From the NCBI GenBank assembly GCA_003193925.1, contig PSPG01000003.1, positions 40,797 through 104,796 of the forward strand: a stretch of 64,000 bases of DNA, read 5' to 3'. A program made the position numbers and the translations under genes. Positions 44,441-56,267 of the stretch are shown here, piece after piece (position 1 is the stretch's first letter; the number at the start of each line of letters is the position of its first letter). Below the pieces are notes generated by a model that saw only the letters and a list, made by a program, of their open reading frames with translations, was not told where the DNA came from and searched no databases. This DNA comes from Candidatus Thalassarchaeum betae. GTDB taxonomy: Archaea; Thermoplasmatota; Poseidoniia; Poseidoniales; Thalassarchaeaceae.

Positions 44441-44494
44441 TTCAATATGCACGCTGGCGATAGAATCATGTTGCTCGCTTCTGGTAGATGCCCG

Positions 44495-46495
44495 ATGGCC
44501 CGGGACACCAGTGCCTCTGCTCTCGCCCTTCTGCTGGTACTCTCGATGGTGGCATCGACGATGCCGCTCGGGTCCGGACCTGAGCATCTGGACGAGGGAG
44601 GCCTGCGTATGGAGCAAATCGGAGGAGGAGGTTCGCTCGAGGAGCAATGTGGCTCAATAACCTTCGAGGACATGTTCGCCTACACCAAAGCAGACTTCGT
44701 GATTCACATCAATGACGACTGGCAGAGCGCGGAGGTACAGGCGGTCGCCTGGGTGAACTGGACGCTCGCCGATGACCTCAGAGAGACGATGGACGAGTTC
44801 ATGGCTGAACTCGACCCCAACAACGGCGGTGACGGCTGGCTCTCCACCGACGAGCGGGAGTTCTTTCGGGCGCTCGCGAGCGAGTGCATCGAGCACACGC
44901 TGACCAGAATAGGGTTCAGGGATGGCTCGTACCACAGAGGTGGCGAGGGAGTCAGTTGGAAGAACACCAGCTGGGAGGAGGACGGAGTCGAGATTGAGGA
45001 GTTCAATCTGGTTCCCCTAAGGCACTCACAGATCCGCGACTGCACCTCCGCCTTTGGCAACGACTGCGAGGAGGTGCCTGTCGCACCCGATGAGAACCGC
45101 GACTGCGACACCGACATCCCGCCCTCGGATGGCGTCGACGAATGCAGGGCCATACTGTGGATGAACTCCACGTTGACTATCCCCGGAGTCTCTGACGGCA
45201 ACCAGTTCACTCTTGCAATCAACGCTTCCAACATGAGCAACGCCGCTCTGGAGTTCACCTTCCCAATCACTCCAGACCTCCGCCTAGACATGTGGGAGGA
45301 GTGCGAGGGGCGCGACGTGAGTTACGAGGAGGAAGCGGTGATCCCAGCCCCCATCCGTGGGACCTGTCTGGGTGATGGTTCCTCCACGTACACGCTCGTG
45401 GAGAACGACAACGGTGGTCTGACGATGACCATCCTGCCTGATGCAGATACTCTTGATTGGCCCTCGGGAGAGGACCTGTTCGCAGACTTCACCACCGCCC
45501 CCATACCCGTCGACAATCCGCCTGAGTGGACTGACGCTGCGCCTCCTGAGGGCGCCTGGTTCCCCTCTCCCAGCGGCGGGCAGCACGTCTGGGCGACCTG
45601 GCATGATGTCTCCACGTGGTTCACCGATGAGGGCAGCGTCACCCAGTTGGACATTCAGTGCACCGGCGCGTCCTCGCTCCAACTCAGCGAGGGCGCGGAC
45701 CGCTCATGGTGGGCAGAGATCCCGCGTGGAAGCACCGGAGAGGTGACCTGCCAAGCCGAGGACTCTGCCGGACAGAGCACTGGAAACAGAACCTGGAACC
45801 TCGGTGTCCCGTTCTCACTCTCGACATCCAGCCAGACGCTAGTCGACCCTCATCCGATTACCCTCAGCCCGACATCCGACTGGCCCGATCTAACCGTCGA
45901 GGTCGGACTGGTGCAGGATGGCCAGTCCTTGCCGACCTCCTCAGTCACTTTCACCGGGGAGGTCACATTGGACCTCGTGTCTTTTAACACGGTACCAGGG
46001 CCGGTGCAAGTCTGGGTCAGCGTCCAAGGTACCGACGTCTACTCGATGGAGCATGTGTATGAGCTCGGTCTGACTAAGGAGAGTTCTCCCCCGTTGCTCA
46101 CGATCACATCGACGGAATGGGACGGGTCAGAGTGGTCGATGCAGGGGCAGTATAGCGACCCTGACGGCGAAGCCGTCACCTTCACGATGGCAATAGACGG
46201 CTCCGCTACAGGCTCGGTTAGCTCGAGCGGCAACACTTGGTCGACCCCTAGAATAAACTTCGAGCTCTGGGATGAGGGAGAGCACGTGGTCACCATCGAG
46301 GGCTGTGATGCTTCGAGCAAATGCTCCAGTGTTTCGCAGACTGTGAACAACTCTCACCTCTTCGATGAGCCAGAACCAAACCCTCTCCCTACCACTGTTG
46401 ATGATGGAGGCAGTGGCTTGCTACCTGCTGCTGGCCTACCTGCACTCATCATTGCTGTAGTCGGTGCCCTCATGTATGGTAGGCGGCGCGGCTGA
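44495..46495 (+). CDS. Large secreted surface protein with C-terminal TM/RRR anchor
   Basis: Signal peptide MARDTSASALALLLVLSMVAST (start preferred over 44447); C-terminus LLPAAGLPALIIAVVGALMYGRRRG. Confidence 0.7.
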   Translation: MARDTSASALALLLVLSMVASTMPLGSGPEHLDEGGLRMEQIGGGGSLEEQCGSITFEDMFAYTKADFVIHINDDWQSAEVQAVAWVNWTLADDLRETMDEFMAELDPNNGGDGWLSTDEREFFRALASECIEHTLTRIGFRDGSYHRGGEGVSWKNTSWEEDGVEIEEFNLVPLRHSQIRDCTSAFGNDCEEVPVAPDENRDCDTDIPPSDGVDECRAILWMNSTLTIPGVSDGNQFTLAINASNMSNAALEFTFPITPDLRLDMWEECEGRDVSYEEEAVIPAPIRGTCLGDGSSTYTLVENDNGGLTMTILPDADTLDWPSGEDLFADFTTAPIPVDNPPEWTDAAPPEGAWFPSPSGGQHVWATWHDVSTWFTDEGSVTQLDIQCTGASSLQLSEGADRSWWAEIPRGSTGEVTCQAEDSAGQSTGNRTWNLGVPFSLSTSSQTLVDPHPITLSPTSDWPDLTVEVGLVQDGQSLPTSSVTFTGEVTLDLVSFNTVPGPVQVWVSVQGTDVYSMEHVYELGLTKESSPPLLTITSTEWDGSEWSMQGQYSDPDGEAVTFTMAIDGSATGSVSSSGNTWSTPRINFELWDEGEHVVTIEGCDASSKCSSVSQTVNNSHLFDEPEPNPLPTTVDDGGSGLLPAAGLPALIIAVVGALMYGRRRG

Positions 46496-46498
46496 GCC

Positions 46499-47389
46499 AT
46501 GAGTTTCTCCGGGACCGTGTCAAAGGCTTCGCATGAAGGAGGTCTTCTCATTGCCTTCGAGGGACGAGCCCCCAGACTCGGCGCCGCCATTCGGGTGGTC
46601 GGCGGCAAGACGCTGGGGCAGGTCGAAACGGTGATTGGCTCCGCCGGCGACCCGCTGATTCACATTCACCCTCTGTCAGAGGACGTGGATGCAAGGAGCG
46701 CCATCGGCTCGCCGGTCGAAATCGCCCCCCGTGGGAGAGCGAACCGAGGCCACCGGGACAAGCGACCCGGACCGGACCGCTTCAGGAGGGAGCGAGGGGG
46801 CAAGTCCGATGGCGACAGGGACTCGCACATGAGGCCGGGCGACTGGCGCTGCCCGAAATGCAAAAACCACAATTACGCAAACAAGAAGGTCTGCAATCGA
46901 ACTGGTTGTGAAGAGCCGAAACCGAGAGGCGGTGGCGGAAGAGACAGGGATTCTCGTAGCTATCGATCTAGTAACTCGGGTGGTTTCAGAGACTCAAATA
47001 TGAAGCCGGGCGACTGGCGCTGCCCGAAATGCAAAAACCGCAATTTCGCAAACAAGAAGGTCTGCAATCGAACTGGTTGTGAAGAGCCGAAACCGAGAGG
47101 CGGTGGCGGAAGAGGCGGGGATTCTCGTGGCCATCGATCTAGTAACTCGAGTGGTTTCAGAGACTCAAATATGAAGCCAGGGGACTGGAATTGCCCGAAG
47201 TGCAACAACCACAATTACGCGAGACGGGACGTTTGCAACCGCTGCGACACGAGAAAACCTGTGCCTGGGAGAGGATCCAAGACGACACCTCGGAGAGCGC
47301 GCAGACCCCACACTCGTATGAATTGGAAAGGGAAGGGGCCTTCCAAAGGTAGGAGGAACACACCTGCCAGAGGCGGAAGAGGTCGCTGA
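46499..47389 (+). CDS. Gar1-like RNA-binding protein with three RanBP2-type zinc fingers and Gly/Arg/Ser linkers
   Basis: Gar1-like beta-barrel pattern SGTVSKASHEGGLLIAFEGRAPRLGAAIRVVGGKTLGQVETVIGSAGDPLIHIHPL; GDWRCPKCKNHNYANKKVCNRTGCEEPKP x2 and GDWNCPKCNNHNYARRDVCNRCDTRKP fingers. Confidence 0.8.
   Translation: MSFSGTVSKASHEGGLLIAFEGRAPRLGAAIRVVGGKTLGQVETVIGSAGDPLIHIHPLSEDVDARSAIGSPVEIAPRGRANRGHRDKRPGPDRFRRERGGKSDGDRDSHMRPGDWRCPKCKNHNYANKKVCNRTGCEEPKPRGGGGRDRDSRSYRSSNSGGFRDSNMKPGDWRCPKCKNRNFANKKVCNRTGCEEPKPRGGGGRGGDSRGHRSSNSSGFRDSNMKPGDWNCPKCNNHNYARRDVCNRCDTRKPVPGRGSKTTPRRARRPHTRMNWKGKGPSKGRRNTPARGGRGR
46829..47170 (+). repeat. Tandem in-frame 171-bp (57-codon) repeat, 2 near-identical copies; third diverged finger follows at 47171
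   Basis: 46829-46999 and 47000-47170 compared by eye: about 8 mismatches in 171 nt. Confidence 0.93.
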
Positions 47390-47442: not shown

Positions 47443-48513
47443 ATGGCCAAAAGCGCCGAGTTGACTTGGCTCGATGCGTTGGAGGCCGAGGAGTCGGGCG
47501 ACAGGGAAGCCGCCCTCGAAGCCGCCAAGGAGACGGTGAGAATCGACCCGGGACACTCCGACGGGTGGATGGGGGTGGCCCGCTGGACCCTCCCTCTCGA
47601 GGTCAAGGGCCGGCAGGAGATGCCGAACCTGCAGCAGTCTGCCAAGGCCATGGCCGCCCTTCGTAAGGTCGTGGAGATCGACCCTGAGAATTCCGATGCT
47701 TGGAGGCTTGGAGGGGTGCTGTTGGTCGACCACCTTGGGATGCTTGAAGATGGCATCAGGTGGTGGGAGGCGCGGCGCGTGGTCGCGCCGTACGAGGTAG
47801 TACCCCTCATCGAGCAGATTGGGATACTCGTCAGGCTCGGTTACTACGAGGAGTGCGCCTTTCTCCTCGAGGAGCTGTTCAGCGAGGGTATGGATGCGAC
47901 CGACCGCAAGCAACTGGCCCAGATGGAGGCAGCCAGGCGCATGGTCTCCAGAGCTGCGAAGATGGAGAAGGACGAGATATTCAAGCCCCAGAACCCCAAG
48001 CACCCCCGTTGGGCCATTATCGGGAGGATGAAGAAAAAGAAGCCCATGTCTGACACCTTCTTCCTGTTCACCTTCATCGCTCCGTTGGTATTCATCCTCG
48101 GTACTCTAGCCATGTACGCAATAGGCGACTCGACCTCGGGCAGCATACTCGTCTTCCTGTTCATACTGCTCTCGTTCATGGCGATCTCACGCCTCACATC
48201 GGGTTTTCTGCACAAGCTGAATCGGCATGCTCTCGACCTTGACCGGGCGATAGACGTTGAGACCAGCGCCGGCAAGGTCTGCATTCCCACCTCGATAAGG
48301 GCGAGCAAGCTGTACCTGGCGATGACGAAGAAGCGGATGCCAGGACTCAATGAGAGGCTCGAACTGATCGTCGAGTCGGGGGACAAGCTGTCAATCAGGT
48401 GGAAGCCAGAGATGCCGGACTTTGCCCCCGAGGAAGGCCACGAGAATCCCTGGTGGGCCGAAGGGGATGAGTCGGGGGCAGAGCAGGGGGACCTAGAGCC
48501 GCTCGAGGACTAG
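47443..48513 (+). CDS. TPR-like protein with C-terminal TM segments
   Basis: Repeated helical N-terminus (AALEAAKETVRIDPGHSDGWMGVAR; AALRKVVEIDPENSDAWRLGGVLL); TM pair FIAPLVFILGTLAMYAI / ILVFLFILLSFMAI. Confidence 0.7.
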   Translation: MAKSAELTWLDALEAEESGDREAALEAAKETVRIDPGHSDGWMGVARWTLPLEVKGRQEMPNLQQSAKAMAALRKVVEIDPENSDAWRLGGVLLVDHLGMLEDGIRWWEARRVVAPYEVVPLIEQIGILVRLGYYEECAFLLEELFSEGMDATDRKQLAQMEAARRMVSRAAKMEKDEIFKPQNPKHPRWAIIGRMKKKKPMSDTFFLFTFIAPLVFILGTLAMYAIGDSTSGSILVFLFILLSFMAISRLTSGFLHKLNRHALDLDRAIDVETSAGKVCIPTSIRASKLYLAMTKKRMPGLNERLELIVESGDKLSIRWKPEMPDFAPEEGHENPWWAEGDESGAEQGDLEPLED

Positions 48514-49838: not shown

Positions 49839-52800
49839 TCAACCGCCGTCTCTGCGTTGCTGTTCGTAGTACTGGGCGTAGTACTGCTGAGCGTACTGTC
49901 TGGCCGTCTGCTCGTCGTAACCGGAGGCGACCATCTGCTGGACGTAGGCCTCGACCGGGTCCATCTCTTCGACGCCACCGAACTGCTCGACTGTGTCCTC
50001 GCCCGAGTCCTCTTTGCCTCGGCCGCGCATTACCACGGTTACAACGACAACCAGCAGGAGGATGACCACACCTATTCCTCCTATCAAGAGCATGCTCATG
50101 CCCTCGCCCTGGTCCTTCGATAGCACAGGAAGGTCTGGCAGGAGGTTGATGGCCAGCGTGTCTGAGATGACGTACCGGCTGCCGTCACCCTCGGTGATGC
50201 GCACGTAGATGGTGGCAGCGACGCCGGTTTCCTGGTACAGGTCGGAGATGTCCAGAGTCAGGGTGAACTGCTGCCCGTCAGCGAGGAGTCCTGTCTTGTT
50301 GTACTTGCCAATCGACTTCTGGGTGATCTTCTGGGTCGTCGTGTAGTCGAGGACGGCCTCGGTGAGGGCGACTTCGATGACGACATCGCTGTTCTCAGCG
50401 CCCGAGACGAGGCTTCCCGTGATCGTCACGAGGTCCTCGCTCTGGGAGTCTTGGGGCCTTGGCTTGGTGAAGTCCACGACAGGCTCGTCGTCGCCGAAGT
50501 CCTCTCCGACGACAACGAAGTACATCCTGGCCTTCTGGCTCTGCTTGCCGGCCTTGTCGTAGACAATCAGCTCGACGCGGATCTGGTTCTCGAGATTGCC
50601 GTCAGGGCTGCTGGTCAGGTTCCTGAACACATACGTCCAGTCGTCGCCGGCTGCTGCGGGAATCTGGAACTCGTGACCCTGCAGAGTCGGGTTCTGGCTG
50701 TCCCAGGGGTAGTCGAAGAAGACCTTCCACTCGTATAGCACAACGCCCTTCTCACCCTCAGGGGCATCGGGGTCGTAGCTGTCCTGCGCAGTGAAAGAGA
50801 TGCTCAGGTCGCCCGTGTCTGACAGTCTGGTCCTGTAGACTGGCCAATCGACTCCGGCTACGGTCTTGGTGCCGTCCAGAGTGACGTACTCGTCGGTGAC
50901 CTCGTTCTCGATCATGGAGGCGCTGGCGATGGGCCTGAATTCGTCGGCGAGGGTGTCATCGGTCACTAGGCGGATGTAGGTGATCCTAGTGTGGCCCTCC
51001 CCATCGTGCAGGTACAGGGTCAGCATCCACTCGGCGCCAATCCTGCAGCCTGTGTCCGAGGTGGTGTCTCCGACGCAGAACGAGCCCAGAGTCGGTATGG
51101 ATGGGTTGAGCTGCTGGGTGTGGCTAAACTCCCCAGCGTCGATAATCGAGCCGTCCCAACCAGTGACCGAGTCGTTGTTACCGGACTCAAGGGTCCAGTC
51201 TGCGACGACGCCCTCGGCGGTGGTGACATAGCTGAAGTCGAGGTCGGAATTGCTCTTGATGTACATCGTAGCGTAGGCCCCGGTCACCGTGTCAATCGAA
51301 GGCGCCTCACCGTTGATGGACAGATCGAAGCTCTCGCCCGCTATACCGAAGTCGAGCGGGTACGGAGTCAAGTGGTAGGCGAGCATGTTCGACAGCAGGG
51401 GCATCGACGAGCCGCCGTACTCCTCCGAGACACTCGGGTTCTCCACGTCGATCGTGGTGACGATCAACCCGCCGGCACCGCGATTGCACACGGACAGCAG
51501 GGACTGGGTCTCGTAGTTAGTGTCACGGATCAGCGTGTGGAATGTGCCAACGGGGTCGCTGATGCGACCGCCGCAAACCTGCGGTATCTGGGTCCCCTGG
51601 ACCTGTGCAGTGTCGAGGCCAGCAAGAGCGACGTAGGAGCCGCCGTGGACCCCGCTGAAAGCCACCGGGTCGACGTTGCTCAGAATCGGGTGGAACTGGT
51701 CGATGATGGTCAGGTTGCTGTAGTGGATCCTGTTGTCGACGGTGAAGTTAGCCTGGTTCCTCATGGCGATGTCCATGCCGAAGGGCAGCCTGTTGGGCTG
51801 GTACTCGTTCCTGTACGGCCCGAGGTGAATCTGCACCGTGCCGCCGCCGGTCATGTAATCCTCTAGGGTCTCAGTGACGGTGAGGCCATCGCTCTCGCGA
51901 GTCTCGTCGAGCTTCTCGTAGTAGTCACCGTAGTAGACGTTGTAGTCGGTCTGCCATGGCAGCAGTACCTTGTCGTAGTGCTCGACCCAATCGGGCGTGG
52001 CGTAGGTGTCCCAGTTCTCCATTTGCAGCTGGGTGTAGGTCTTGCCCATCGCCTCGAGGTCCCTCTTCACACTCTGCAGGCGGTTCTGATCAGTCGGGTT
52101 GGACAGGACAGCCACGTCGATCTGTTCGAAGAACTGGATCTCGAAGTAGCGGTCGTTGCCCGAGCGCTCGTTGTCCTCGGTCAGCGTCCCGTAGAAGCTG
52201 ATGTTGTAGGTGTGGCCGTCGTACCACGAGTTGTATGGATTGGTCCAGTTGGCCTGGTCCCTCGCGTGAGGCTCGAGGTCGAACGGCCCGTTGTCGCAGT
52301 CCTCCTCGTAGACTGTCTGGCCTGTGTCAAGGTCGACTATCTTCATCGTGATCTGGTACTCGCCTGCGATGACGCCGTTAAGCAGTGGCACAGCGAAGCT
52401 GTGGGCCGAGGCGTCATCGATCGGGTAGACGCACTCGTAGGTGATGTCGGCGACGCACTCGAGCACGTCGGGCTGCATCAGGGTGATGTCCGCGCTCGCG
52501 ATGCTGAAGATGATGGAGGAGTGGTTGTTCGCGATGTTGACCTCGGACTCGTTGTACCATGAGGTAAGCGGGTCCGTGTTGTCGAAGATGGTGGTCACGT
52601 CGATCTTGTAGATGCCGCTCTGGAAGTCGTGCGTGGCGAGGTTGACCTGCTGGCGCTGTGCGGCGTCGAGGCCGGTGACGTCGACTGTGTAGGTGCCATC
52701 GTCCTCGAAGGTGAACTCCTCGACGCGGATGTTGTCGATGCCGAAACCGGCCAGGCCGGCGTTGCCGTTGACGCCGTCGTCGTTGGACTGGAATCTCCAA

Positions 52801-55800
52801 GTCAGAGACACCTCGGAGCCAGCGAGGGTCGTGCACTCGTCCCTCCACTCGGAGGTGTCCTCGTTAGTGCGGTTGAGTATGACGATGTGAGTCAGGTCGA
52901 CGGTCACCGACTTGAGGATGTTCTCGGAGTCGAACCAGACCACTGAGTTGATTCTGTCAGAGTGGTCGCCGAAGTACTCGACCTCGTCGTACCCGTTCAG
53001 GTCGAAGTCCTCACAGCGATGGAAGTTCGGGTCGTCCGGGTTGGTGTTCTGAATGCCGTTCTCGTTGAGGTCGGTCCAAGTTCCGTACACCACGCCCTCG
53101 AACACCTCACCCTGCTTGGTCCAGGTAATCTCGAGGTTTGCTGCGTCCCGGATGGCCAGTATGTTGCCGTTGCTGTCCTTGAGATAGTCCCCTTCAGCGT
53201 AGTAGTCGTAGGTCAGGTAGGTGAAGTCGGCTCCTGTCGATGCGACCGGGATTGGATCCAGTGTCAGCGTCTCGTTCCAATTGTCGCCGTAGCCGTCACT
53301 CGGGTGGCCCAGCCAGTAGGCGTGGCTGTTGAACACGCCGCGGTTCTGTGGCAGCATGTCGTTCGAGCCGGTGGAGTCGTCCAGCCTGCTGCCGTTCTCG
53401 TTGCCGTCGTCGGTCCACATCGGCTCGATGCCCGAGAAGTCCTCGATAGCGACGAGATCGGGTTCGGCGTTCTGGATGAAGGCCTCGACCTGGAAGTCTG
53501 TCACCGTGTTGCCGCAGTTCTGCACGCGCACCTCCACGTCCCTCTCGCCCGAGGCGTACCTGACGCCGTTCTCGAGGTCAACCCAGTGCTCCTCTGCGAG
53601 GCACGGGTCGAACAGGTTGTTCACTGTCAGCTGGAATCTGATATCGTCGTTGAGGCCGTCCATGTCGATGAATCCGGACGGGTTGGTCAGCTCGGTCTTG
53701 ACGTAGTAGGTCCTGTTGTCTATGAAGTCCGCAGTCAGGCTTACCTCCTCGGAGGCGCCGGCCGCGAAGTCGTTGAAGATGAGTTGCTGCGAGACTGTCT
53801 CGGTCGACCCGAAGGTGACGTCCCTCTTCCTGATGGTTATGTTGTCGAAGGCGAAGCCGTCCAGACCGGTGTCCTGAGATGACCCAACGGGTCCAACGGA
53901 GCCCATCAGGCCGCTGCGGAAGCGGAAGCGGATGTCGATGACCTGCCCTGCGTAGCGCGTGAGGTCGATTGACTCCAACTCATTGGGGTCTTCCGAAGTG
54001 CCTCCGCCCTCAGTGTAGTTGATCCATCCTGTAGCAGTGTTGGCGAAGTTGTTGCCATTGTAGGTGTTGTACTCCGGGTCGACACCCTGCCAGTAAATGC
54101 GGAAGAAGCGCTCGTTGTCCCAGCCGCCGTTGAAGAAGACGGACTCCCAACCGTTGCCCTCGGACCAGACCTCGATGCCGCAAGAGTCCTCGTACAGCCA
54201 GCGCTCCACCACCGAGTACTGCTCGGCGAGATAGAGTTCGAAGTAGGCGGTGGTGCACATGACCGAGAGGTCCATGTACGCCGCATCGGCCCCGGTCAGG
54301 TCGACGTTTTCGAGAATCAGTGCCTCGTCCATATTGTTGTAGTATCCAGAATCGCTCTCGTTGTCTCCGTTGTAGTCGATGCCGGCCCAGTAGTAGTCGG
54401 TGGGGTTGCTGTCGGCCTCGTACCAAGAGACATTCTCGGTAGCCGCAGTCGAGTTGCTCTCGATGTGCCACGAGGATGCCCCGGTTTCGTACATTCCGGT
54501 GTAGGAGTTCTTGACGAAGGCGCAGTTGGCGCAGTTAGTCGTGTCCTCGTTGCCCTCGAAGTCGTTGGAGTAGACCACGGTGTCGGTTCCGCCGACGACC
54601 TCCTTGACCTCGAGATCGACGTTGATGGAGCCTGTCAGCGGGTTAAGTCCCGTGTTCTTCACGGTCACGTTGACCCATCTCGTTCCCTCGCCGATCTCGG
54701 CCTGTCCAGTGGCGGGATTGTAGGACGCAGGCGCGATGGTGACCTCGGTGATGCCGACATCCTCGTTGTCGAGCGTGAGTACTGAGAGGAAGTCTCCAGC
54801 GCCGGCCCACCCTTGGGTGTCCAGCCACATCGCGTTGTCGGCGAATCTGTAGCCGTAGTCGCGCTGTCCGATGACGATCTCGTAGGCGCTCTCGTCACCG
54901 CCTTGCAATTGGGCGGGGATTGCCATGGTAGGCCGGCGGCCTACGTTGAACGAGAGTGACGAGAGGTAACCGGGCCCGCTGGGGTCGGCGAGGATGATCT
55001 CTACCGAGTTGATCTCGCGCAGGTTGTCGAGCAGCAGGTAGGTCTGGTTCTGTGCGGTCGAGTCCTGCAGACGGGTCAGGGTGACCTCGGTCGGCACGAA
55101 GAAGTCGACCTCGCCGTCTCGGTTGATGTCGACGATGGTAAGCGAGGCGCCGAGGTAGTCGCCGAGATAGACGTAGTTCTGGGTGCTCCAGCTGCTGCCG
55201 CTCTTGGTGGCGTAGGAGATGTTGCCTGTGATGCCGTCGATAGCGGCGATGAGGTCGATCTCACCGTCATCGTCGGTATCGGCGATGTCGATGCCGTAGA
55301 GCGGATAGTTGTGATCGGCATCGAGCTTGAACTCGTGGACCCCCTGTGCGGTCGCGTCCATGGGATTGGGATACTGATTGGTCAGACAGTCATACTCGAG
55401 CACGGTCATGTTGTCGAAGTGACCGACCGAGTAGCCCACACCAATGTTGTACGGGGGGGTCCGGAGAAGCCAGATGTCGAGATCCTCGCAGTCTCCGATG
55501 CCACCGGGTATGCCACCTCCTTGGACGGTCTCGCCCCAGTGGCCGAGCATCACTTCAACGTACAAGCCATTGGTCAGAGGCACCGGGATGGACTGTTGGT
55601 TGGTCAGCAGAGATGGGTCGGGCCCACGGTAAATCTGGATGTACTGGTTGGCCGCCGTCGCGTCTTGGGTCACGAGCACGATGTCGGCGGCGCCGTCATC
55701 GTCGATGTCCGCGACGTCCATACCAAGGTGATACGGGTTTGAGACCGTGATTTCAGTGAGGTCCCACTCGTTGACCCTCTCATTGCAATCGCCCCACATC

Positions 55801-56267
55801 GTAGTGAGGTTGCCGGGCCTGACGAAACTCTCCCCGACGAAGCGGATGTTCTCTTGGTAGTAGATGATGTCATTCACTCCATCGTCGTCGACATCGGCTA
55901 TCTCGACATCGACGGAGTTTGCTGTATCGACGAAGCCTGCGCGCTGGGAGACGTTGTTGGAGATGAACACGTCCTGCCTGTCTTGGAAGCCGCCCGAGCC
56001 GTCATTGTACAGGACCGTGATGAAGTGCCCCATCATACTGACCGCGACGATGTCGTTGTGTCCGTCGCAGTCCAAATCACCCACTGAAAGATGGGACGGG
56101 TCACGTTGGACCGCGTACTGGGTGATGTGCGATGCGCTGACTGCTGGCACTAGGGCGACAATCAGCGAGCCCAGCATCAACAGCACGAGGAAGACGGCCT
56201 TCCGGCCCTCCTTTGTTCGATTTCTAGTAGCCCCAGACGTATGCAGCATGCTCAGCCGGACTTTCAC
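49839..56267 (-). CDS. Giant secreted surface protein (2142 aa), FG-GAP/VCBS repeats, C-terminal TM and Tyr/Gln-rich tail
   Basis: Signal peptide; GDLDCDGHNDIVAVSM, DVDDDGVNDIIYY, DIDDDGAADIVLV, DTDDDGEIDLIAA, DINRDGEVDFFVP; TM MLLIGGIGVVILLLVVVVTVVM; tail YDEQTARQYAQQYYAQYYEQQRRDGG. Confidence 0.85.
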   Translation of the reverse strand: MKVRLSMLHTSGATRNRTKEGRKAVFLVLLMLGSLIVALVPAVSASHITQYAVQRDPSHLSVGDLDCDGHNDIVAVSMMGHFITVLYNDGSGGFQDRQDVFISNNVSQRAGFVDTANSVDVEIADVDDDGVNDIIYYQENIRFVGESFVRPGNLTTMWGDCNERVNEWDLTEITVSNPYHLGMDVADIDDDGAADIVLVTQDATAANQYIQIYRGPDPSLLTNQQSIPVPLTNGLYVEVMLGHWGETVQGGGIPGGIGDCEDLDIWLLRTPPYNIGVGYSVGHFDNMTVLEYDCLTNQYPNPMDATAQGVHEFKLDADHNYPLYGIDIADTDDDGEIDLIAAIDGITGNISYATKSGSSWSTQNYVYLGDYLGASLTIVDINRDGEVDFFVPTEVTLTRLQDSTAQNQTYLLLDNLREINSVEIILADPSGPGYLSSLSFNVGRRPTMAIPAQLQGGDESAYEIVIGQRDYGYRFADNAMWLDTQGWAGAGDFLSVLTLDNEDVGITEVTIAPASYNPATGQAEIGEGTRWVNVTVKNTGLNPLTGSINVDLEVKEVVGGTDTVVYSNDFEGNEDTTNCANCAFVKNSYTGMYETGASSWHIESNSTAATENVSWYEADSNPTDYYWAGIDYNGDNESDSGYYNNMDEALILENVDLTGADAAYMDLSVMCTTAYFELYLAEQYSVVERWLYEDSCGIEVWSEGNGWESVFFNGGWDNERFFRIYWQGVDPEYNTYNGNNFANTATGWINYTEGGGTSEDPNELESIDLTRYAGQVIDIRFRFRSGLMGSVGPVGSSQDTGLDGFAFDNITIRKRDVTFGSTETVSQQLIFNDFAAGASEEVSLTADFIDNRTYYVKTELTNPSGFIDMDGLNDDIRFQLTVNNLFDPCLAEEHWVDLENGVRYASGERDVEVRVQNCGNTVTDFQVEAFIQNAEPDLVAIEDFSGIEPMWTDDGNENGSRLDDSTGSNDMLPQNRGVFNSHAYWLGHPSDGYGDNWNETLTLDPIPVASTGADFTYLTYDYYAEGDYLKDSNGNILAIRDAANLEITWTKQGEVFEGVVYGTWTDLNENGIQNTNPDDPNFHRCEDFDLNGYDEVEYFGDHSDRINSVVWFDSENILKSVTVDLTHIVILNRTNEDTSEWRDECTTLAGSEVSLTWRFQSNDDGVNGNAGLAGFGIDNIRVEEFTFEDDGTYTVDVTGLDAAQRQQVNLATHDFQSGIYKIDVTTIFDNTDPLTSWYNESEVNIANNHSSIIFSIASADITLMQPDVLECVADITYECVYPIDDASAHSFAVPLLNGVIAGEYQITMKIVDLDTGQTVYEEDCDNGPFDLEPHARDQANWTNPYNSWYDGHTYNISFYGTLTEDNERSGNDRYFEIQFFEQIDVAVLSNPTDQNRLQSVKRDLEAMGKTYTQLQMENWDTYATPDWVEHYDKVLLPWQTDYNVYYGDYYEKLDETRESDGLTVTETLEDYMTGGGTVQIHLGPYRNEYQPNRLPFGMDIAMRNQANFTVDNRIHYSNLTIIDQFHPILSNVDPVAFSGVHGGSYVALAGLDTAQVQGTQIPQVCGGRISDPVGTFHTLIRDTNYETQSLLSVCNRGAGGLIVTTIDVENPSVSEEYGGSSMPLLSNMLAYHLTPYPLDFGIAGESFDLSINGEAPSIDTVTGAYATMYIKSNSDLDFSYVTTAEGVVADWTLESGNNDSVTGWDGSIIDAGEFSHTQQLNPSIPTLGSFCVGDTTSDTGCRIGAEWMLTLYLHDGEGHTRITYIRLVTDDTLADEFRPIASASMIENEVTDEYVTLDGTKTVAGVDWPVYRTRLSDTGDLSISFTAQDSYDPDAPEGEKGVVLYEWKVFFDYPWDSQNPTLQGHEFQIPAAAGDDWTYVFRNLTSSPDGNLENQIRVELIVYDKAGKQSQKARMYFVVVGEDFGDDEPVVDFTKPRPQDSQSEDLVTITGSLVSGAENSDVVIEVALTEAVLDYTTTQKITQKSIGKYNKTGLLADGQQFTLTLDISDLYQETGVAATIYVRITEGDGSRYVISDTLAINLLPDLPVLSKDQGEGMSMLLIGGIGVVILLLVVVVTVVMRGRGKEDSGEDTVEQFGGVEEMDPVEAYVQQMVASGYDEQTARQYAQQYYAQYYEQQRRDGG

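Follow-up and report, generated by a model that had tools for sequence, protein, structure and literature searches.

In the Poseidoniales, the Marine Group II archaea that form an abundant marine order, a gene joins a Gar1-type β-barrel to a long basic tail bearing RanBP2-type zinc fingers. We studied it in a 64,000-nucleotide stretch of DNA (the window), where it lies on the plus strand (46499–47389) and encodes three fingers. The H/ACA RNP is an enzyme that, guided by RNA, turns uridine into pseudouridine. Gar1 is one of its helper proteins, and its textbook form in archaea is a small domain without additions. We consider it fairly probable that the protein is the Gar1 subunit of the Poseidoniales H/ACA RNP and that its tail acts as a GG-preferring RNA tether. 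What is new here is an archaeal Gar1 with a FET-like tail, predicted from its sequence to bind RNA. With it, most of the order departs from the core-only rule for archaeal Gar1 and adds zinc fingers best known from RNA-binding proteins of eukaryotes. This suggests that H/ACA enzymes are able to acquire RNA binding directed by protein. A review describes archaeal Gar1 as the core only, without the Gly/Arg-rich (GAR) regions of the eukaryotic protein (PMC7991803). In the open-access literature we found no earlier account of an archaeal Gar1 with RanBP2 fingers, although one may exist elsewhere, and no paper dealing with Gar1 together with Marine Group II.

In known systems, Gar1 binds Cbf5 at a distance from the guide RNA, and it controls the thumb loop of Cbf5 (PMC7991803, PMC4551948, PMC6138745). 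By prediction, the Poseidoniales barrel docks there too and, as Gar1 does in other archaea, would operate the thumb loop so that substrate is loaded and product released. The fingers and the Arg/Gly-rich linkers would grip single-stranded GG-containing RNA, with a GGU-like preference for the C-x2-C/Arg20 type of finger and a looser one for the C-x4-C/Lys20 type. The tail would hold the enzyme on pre-rRNA or on its own guide RNA; of the readings considered, we infer this tethering to be the most economical. Against this explanation as a whole stand the negative result with the Pfam Gar1 model PF04410, a Val at the Cbf5 position equivalent to R142 of the Pyrococcus furiosus (P. furiosus) protein, and N19/K20 in fingers 1 and 2.

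Layout of the protein and character of its tail

The gene has an ATG start, encodes 296 residues and belongs to a 1.48-Mb genome that is 92% complete. A chance or mis-assembled open reading frame is ruled out because orthologues are present in 93 of the 98 order-mates, the gene is under purifying selection and its synteny is fixed. AlphaFold models the whole protein as beads on a string, in which the barrel and each of the three finger blocks are folded, with block-mean pLDDT values of about 70–93. The barrel comprises residues 1–79 (46499–46735). It is followed by linker 1 (residues 80–107, 46736–46819), which is basic and Arg/Gly-rich, finger 1 (residues 114–137, 46838–46909; GDWRCPKCKNHNYANKKVCNRTGC), linker 2 (residues 145–164, 46931–46990), finger 2 (residues 171–194, 47009–47080; GDWRCPKCKNRNFANKKVCNRTGC), linker 3 (residues 202–222, 47102–47164) and finger 3 (residues 228–249, 47180–47245; GDWNCPKCNNHNYARRDVCNRC). 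The three linkers and the C-terminal segment (residues 259–296, 47273–47386) are predicted to be disordered (pLDDT <50). Tandem Repeats Finder reports a 171-bp repeat of finger-plus-linker units at 46829–47220 (2.3 copies, 92% matches), which is made up of the finger 1 and finger 2 units.

The tail after residue 80 has a net charge of +40, and the C-terminal segment is basic, as an earlier note on this DNA had described it. That note had also called the linkers Gly/Arg-rich. Two PRGGGGR linkers and 10 RG dipeptides agree with this description, but the content is modest: the RG dipeptides (five of them RGG) are mostly scattered over the 216 residues and form no long arrays. Like eukaryotic GAR1 (and Naf1), the protein combines a Gar1 core with disordered Arg/Gly-rich sequence. 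In eukaryotic GAR1, however, RGG domains flank the core on both sides and there are no fingers, whereas the window protein has a C-terminal extension only, few RGG and added zinc fingers; its core has no flanking pair of long RGG-repeat domains. The likeness to eukaryotic GAR1 is likely convergent, because sister archaea have the bare core. A more far-reaching reading is that Poseidoniales independently evolved a eukaryote-like H/ACA particle of FET/GAR1 style. Its multivalent RG/zinc-finger tail would organise the modification of rRNA on the nascent precursor, which might take place in a nucleolus-like condensate, and would give an RNA-guided enzyme protein-directed (GGU) substrate capture. 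We regard this as rather unlikely.

Of the consequences that the earlier note offered, altered targeting and ribosome association are conceivable, and condensate formation is possible in its own right. The multivalent tail of RG and fingers might mainly drive self-association of H/ACA particles or their clustering on nascent pre-rRNA, as a scaffold comparable to the GAR domains of eukaryotic nucleolar proteins. A disordered basic tail containing RG is present in every genus examined, including those without fingers, and in the sorting of pre-rRNA the GAR domains of eukaryotic GAR1 can stand in for that of fibrillarin (PMC9957100). The RG content argues the other way, with only 10 in the 216-residue tail of the window protein and 0–4 in genus g6, and we hold clustering to be an improbable main function of the tail.

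The RanBP2-type fingers and their predicted RNA contacts

The three fingers proposed in the earlier note are borne out by the Pfam model zf-RanBP (PF00641), which matches the protein in three stretches (E 1.1e-19, 69.8 bits against a cut-off of 27). Finger 3 follows the pattern W-x-C-x2-4-C-x3-N-x6-C-x2-C exactly. Fingers 1 and 2 deviate from it by a C-x4-C second knuckle, just as had been claimed, yet PF00641 matches both. Among the closest solved structures found by phmmer are ZRANB2 (1n0z, 2k1p/3g9y), RanBP2/Nup358 and FUS (6g99), with Nup153 also returned. The positions that contact GGU are D4, N14, an aromatic residue at 17, R19/R20 and N24 in the numbering of PMC6384913, where loss of this signature is linked to loss of RNA binding. 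Finger 3 has the full set (D4, N14, Y17, R19, R20 and N24). In fingers 1 and 2, N19/K20 replace both contact arginines, and these two probably bind RNA more weakly or differently.

We surveyed the contacts in 138 intact fingers. As their proteins are related, these fingers do not count as independent observations, and W5 and N16 were preconditions of the pattern used to find them. Fingers of the two Poseidoniales families were pooled because the family split made by the survey script is approximate. D4 and an aromatic side chain at 17 occur in every finger. Two of the 138 depart from N14 and two from N24, and a third cannot be read at position 24. Position 20 divides the fingers without exception: it is Arg in 86 of 86 C-x2-C fingers and Lys in 52 of 52 C-x4-C fingers. 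Position 19 is Phe in most fingers of the C-x2-C type, and Ser or Asn in those of the C-x4-C type. The suggestion that the knuckle types differ in metal site or RNA specificity is in this way sharpened to a strict association of C-x4-C with Lys20 and of C-x2-C with Arg20. The FUS and EWS fingers have a Trp at position 19 and bind GGU or GGG. The Phe of many relatives resembles this Trp, and RG tracts lie next to the fingers as in FET proteins. Taken together, the cysteine pattern and the contact residues fit RNA-binding RanBP2 fingers, as the earlier note had anticipated. The likeness to the fingers of ZRANB2, FUS, EWS and TAF15 covers the finger sequence and the contacts D4, N14, aromatic 17, R20 and N24. 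The differences are that the Poseidoniales fingers are archaeal, are joined to Gar1 instead of RRM domains, and include a second type with the C-x4-C second knuckle and Lys20.

The fingers are under strong purifying selection. Their dN/dS is approximately 0–0.1 in nearly all close pairs and usually no higher than that of the Gar1 domain; the linkers are looser. The exception is the pair formed by the window gene and its counterpart in genome G005 (dN/dS 0.33, at low dS), perhaps owing to recent duplication or conversion of a unit. Genus g10 (L159–L163) has a single degenerate finger, for example LPTWVCSACRSMNSRTSKCSKCG, in which the four cysteines are kept and the RNA contacts are lost.

Fingers of this Pfam family do not all bind RNA: those of Nup153 and RanBP2 bind Ran-GDP, and those of Npl4 bind ubiquitin. 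The Poseidoniales fingers might accordingly bind a protein and in this way bring a partner to the H/ACA RNP. The family spans both kinds, chains of Nup153 and RanBP2/Nup358 are among the phmmer matches, and the C-x4-C type, with Lys20 and Ser or Asn at 19, has the weaker RNA set. We nevertheless think protein binding quite unlikely. ZRANB2 and FUS are also among the closest matches, a strongly basic tail surrounds the fingers, and essentially all intact fingers preserve the RNA-contact signature, the loss of which is linked to loss of RNA binding (PMC6384913).

The Gar1 barrel and its predicted H/ACA partners

The identification of the N-terminal domain as Gar1, made in the earlier note on the basis of its barrel pattern, is upheld by profile, profile–profile and fold comparison. 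The HMM search proposed there succeeded for the fingers and failed for this domain: PF04410 gives no match to the window protein. This leaves an annotation gap, because the Pfam Gar1 model misses the protein. As a single sequence, it matches the NCBIfam Gar1 model NF009631 weakly and below the cut-off (E 0.0079); the finger-less orthologue L073 alone reaches E 3e-6. A profile of 38 orthologous N-domains searched against the PDB gave four P. furiosus Gar1 chains as the best matches (E 0.0011–0.0021) and yeast Gar1 as the fifth. The AlphaFold model of the N-domain has a pLDDT of 91.6, and its top 15 Foldseek matches are all Gar1 chains, from archaea, yeast, human and insect, with TM scores of 0.75/0.83 against 2ey4_D. 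Aligned by hhalign with canonical Thermoplasmatota Gar1, the family scored 97.1% (E 5e-11) over 76 columns, and twenty column-shuffled controls scored at most 4.4%. With archaeal Gar1 (P. furiosus 2ey4/2hvy; PF04410; NF009631), the domain shares the barrel fold and the conserved core pattern over these 76 columns. It differs in the long basic disordered tail with RanBP2 fingers, in scoring below the family cut-offs and in that its gene does not lie beside tfb. The Gar1 identity of the protein is well supported.

The window genome has homologues of the other H/ACA proteins, namely Cbf5 (E 3.3e-92), Nop10 (E 7e-11) and two genes of the L7Ae family. Among 40 relatives, Cbf5 scored over the cut-off in 39 and Nop10 in 38. 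A Gar1 HMM run over the 98 order-mates found a match in 69, and the best match was the finger–Gar1 gene in nearly all of them. Neither there nor in the window genome (92% complete) did this search give a convincing second Gar1. The check for another copy thus left the window gene as the sole candidate, and a single candidate copy alongside Cbf5, Nop10 and L7Ae homologues is again as in other archaea. In the thumb loop of P. furiosus Cbf5, V149 has been shown to be critical, and R142 contacts Gar1 in simulations (PMC4551948). The Cbf5 of the window genome keeps the thumb-loop core SAVK (within NVPPLESAVK) and the Val equivalent to V149; the R142 equivalent is Val. Within the 64-kb window, Rfam returned three tRNAs only, and no guide RNA was identified. 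In genome G019 (genus g8, rated 90% complete), Gar1, Cbf5 and Nop10 were all not found, possibly through loss of the H/ACA machinery or through assembly gaps; G047, of the same genus, is also without Gar1.

Could the protein have left the H/ACA RNP, with the barrel now part of a protein that binds mRNAs or ribosomes in general and that its conserved gene neighbours possibly link to the membrane? The barrel is divergent enough for Pfam to miss it, the R142 equivalent of Cbf5 has changed, and order-wide the gene lies away from the usual tfb neighbourhood, between two membrane-protein genes. On the other hand, the protein has kept the complete Gar1 fold, nearly all genomes retain Cbf5 and Nop10 but yielded no other Gar1, and genes of one operon can differ in function. 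A moonlighting role is possible, but departure from the RNP seems very unlikely. Least credible of all, to the point of being extremely improbable, is a superficial resemblance of a translation-factor type barrel (RimM, IF5B domain II) to Gar1: PF04410 is negative and such barrels share the general fold, but the PDB profile search gives Gar1 first, hhalign sets the family far above its shuffled controls, and RimM (E 0.072 against 5e-4 for Gar1) and aIF5B rank below the 15 Gar1 chains that head the Foldseek list. Other small barrels, including domain II of IF5B/EF-Tu, were rejected because they rank under the Gar1 structures in this way.

Gene neighbourhood, distribution and history

The gene immediately upstream (44447–46495, plus strand) encodes 682 residues with hydrophobic segments at both ends, likely a signal peptide and a C-terminal anchor, and has no Pfam match. 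Its end and the gar1 start codon are 3 nt apart, and this gap recurs within the Thalassarchaeaceae, the family of the window genome. Downstream lies a gene for a 356-residue TPR protein with two hydrophobic segments (47443–48513, plus strand). Both neighbours have homologues in the same positions order-wide and flank gar1 in nearly all loci with enough flanking sequence; their identity falls to 25–37% in the other Poseidoniales family. Since the same two neighbours flank both, the finger-bearing and finger-less versions are orthologous. The conserved cluster is one of an RNP subunit gene with two membrane-protein genes. Adjoining it on the minus strand (49839–56267) is a 2142-residue open reading frame, conserved in close relatives; it apparently encodes a secreted protein of very large size whose C-terminus forms a hydrophobic anchor.

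The combination of Gar1 with fingers, noted at first as a trait of some archaeal lineage, proves to be a property of the order Poseidoniales. The gene family is present in 93 of the 98 genomes, with 0–4 fingers per intact gene. In the five others, a family profile search also came up empty, and these may be assembly gaps. Genera of the second family mostly have 2–4 fingers, all of the C-x2-C type. Among the Thalassarchaeaceae, g1 mostly has 2–3, g4 2–3, g6 and g11 1–2, g5 and g3 at least one, and g8 up to two; genera g2, g7 and g9 have none. The basic Arg/Gly/Lys-rich tail is kept in these three finger-less genera and in g10. Fingers are therefore not needed for the core role, and with three genera finger-less and one bearing a degenerate finger, the proposed tether is not essential. 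The range from 0 to 4 fingers, of two types, offers a natural series for testing tail function.

Beyond the order, other members of the class encode a bare, finger-less Gar1 in open frames of 75–89 residues. One that was measured has 74 residues and matches Pfam Gar1 with E 1.5e-10. In the locus examined from this group, gar1 lies between a pseudouridine-synthase gene and a TFIIB gene. Across 293 genomes of the phylum, fingers above the Pfam cut-off were confined to Poseidoniales and one unrelated protein (L178 in genome G101), a membrane protein with one C-terminal zinc ribbon. The free RanBP2-finger proteins checked elsewhere in the order (L179–L181) were contig-end fragments of Gar1 tails. 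In the simplest history, Gar1 would have gained its basic finger tail on the Poseidoniales stem, where the gene would also have moved to its new neighbourhood, and fingers would then have been duplicated and, in some genera, lost.

Several loci call for separate mention. In genome G074, two Gar1–finger genes on contigs C37 and C38 reflect either a duplication or strain mixture. In L008 (genome G007), stop codons interrupt the gene in the finger region, through degradation or assembly error. A contig labelled Rhodobacteraceae (PARX01000028.1, L047) bears the Poseidoniales cluster; the protein it encodes shares 98% identity with its L049 counterpart, and the contig is probably mis-binned. Most complete proteins of the second family, and those of the Thalassarchaeaceae genus g2, carry a C-terminal motif of the GKxxGHAHNRxPK type, which the window protein lacks; L025, L097 and L165 are examples from these two groups.
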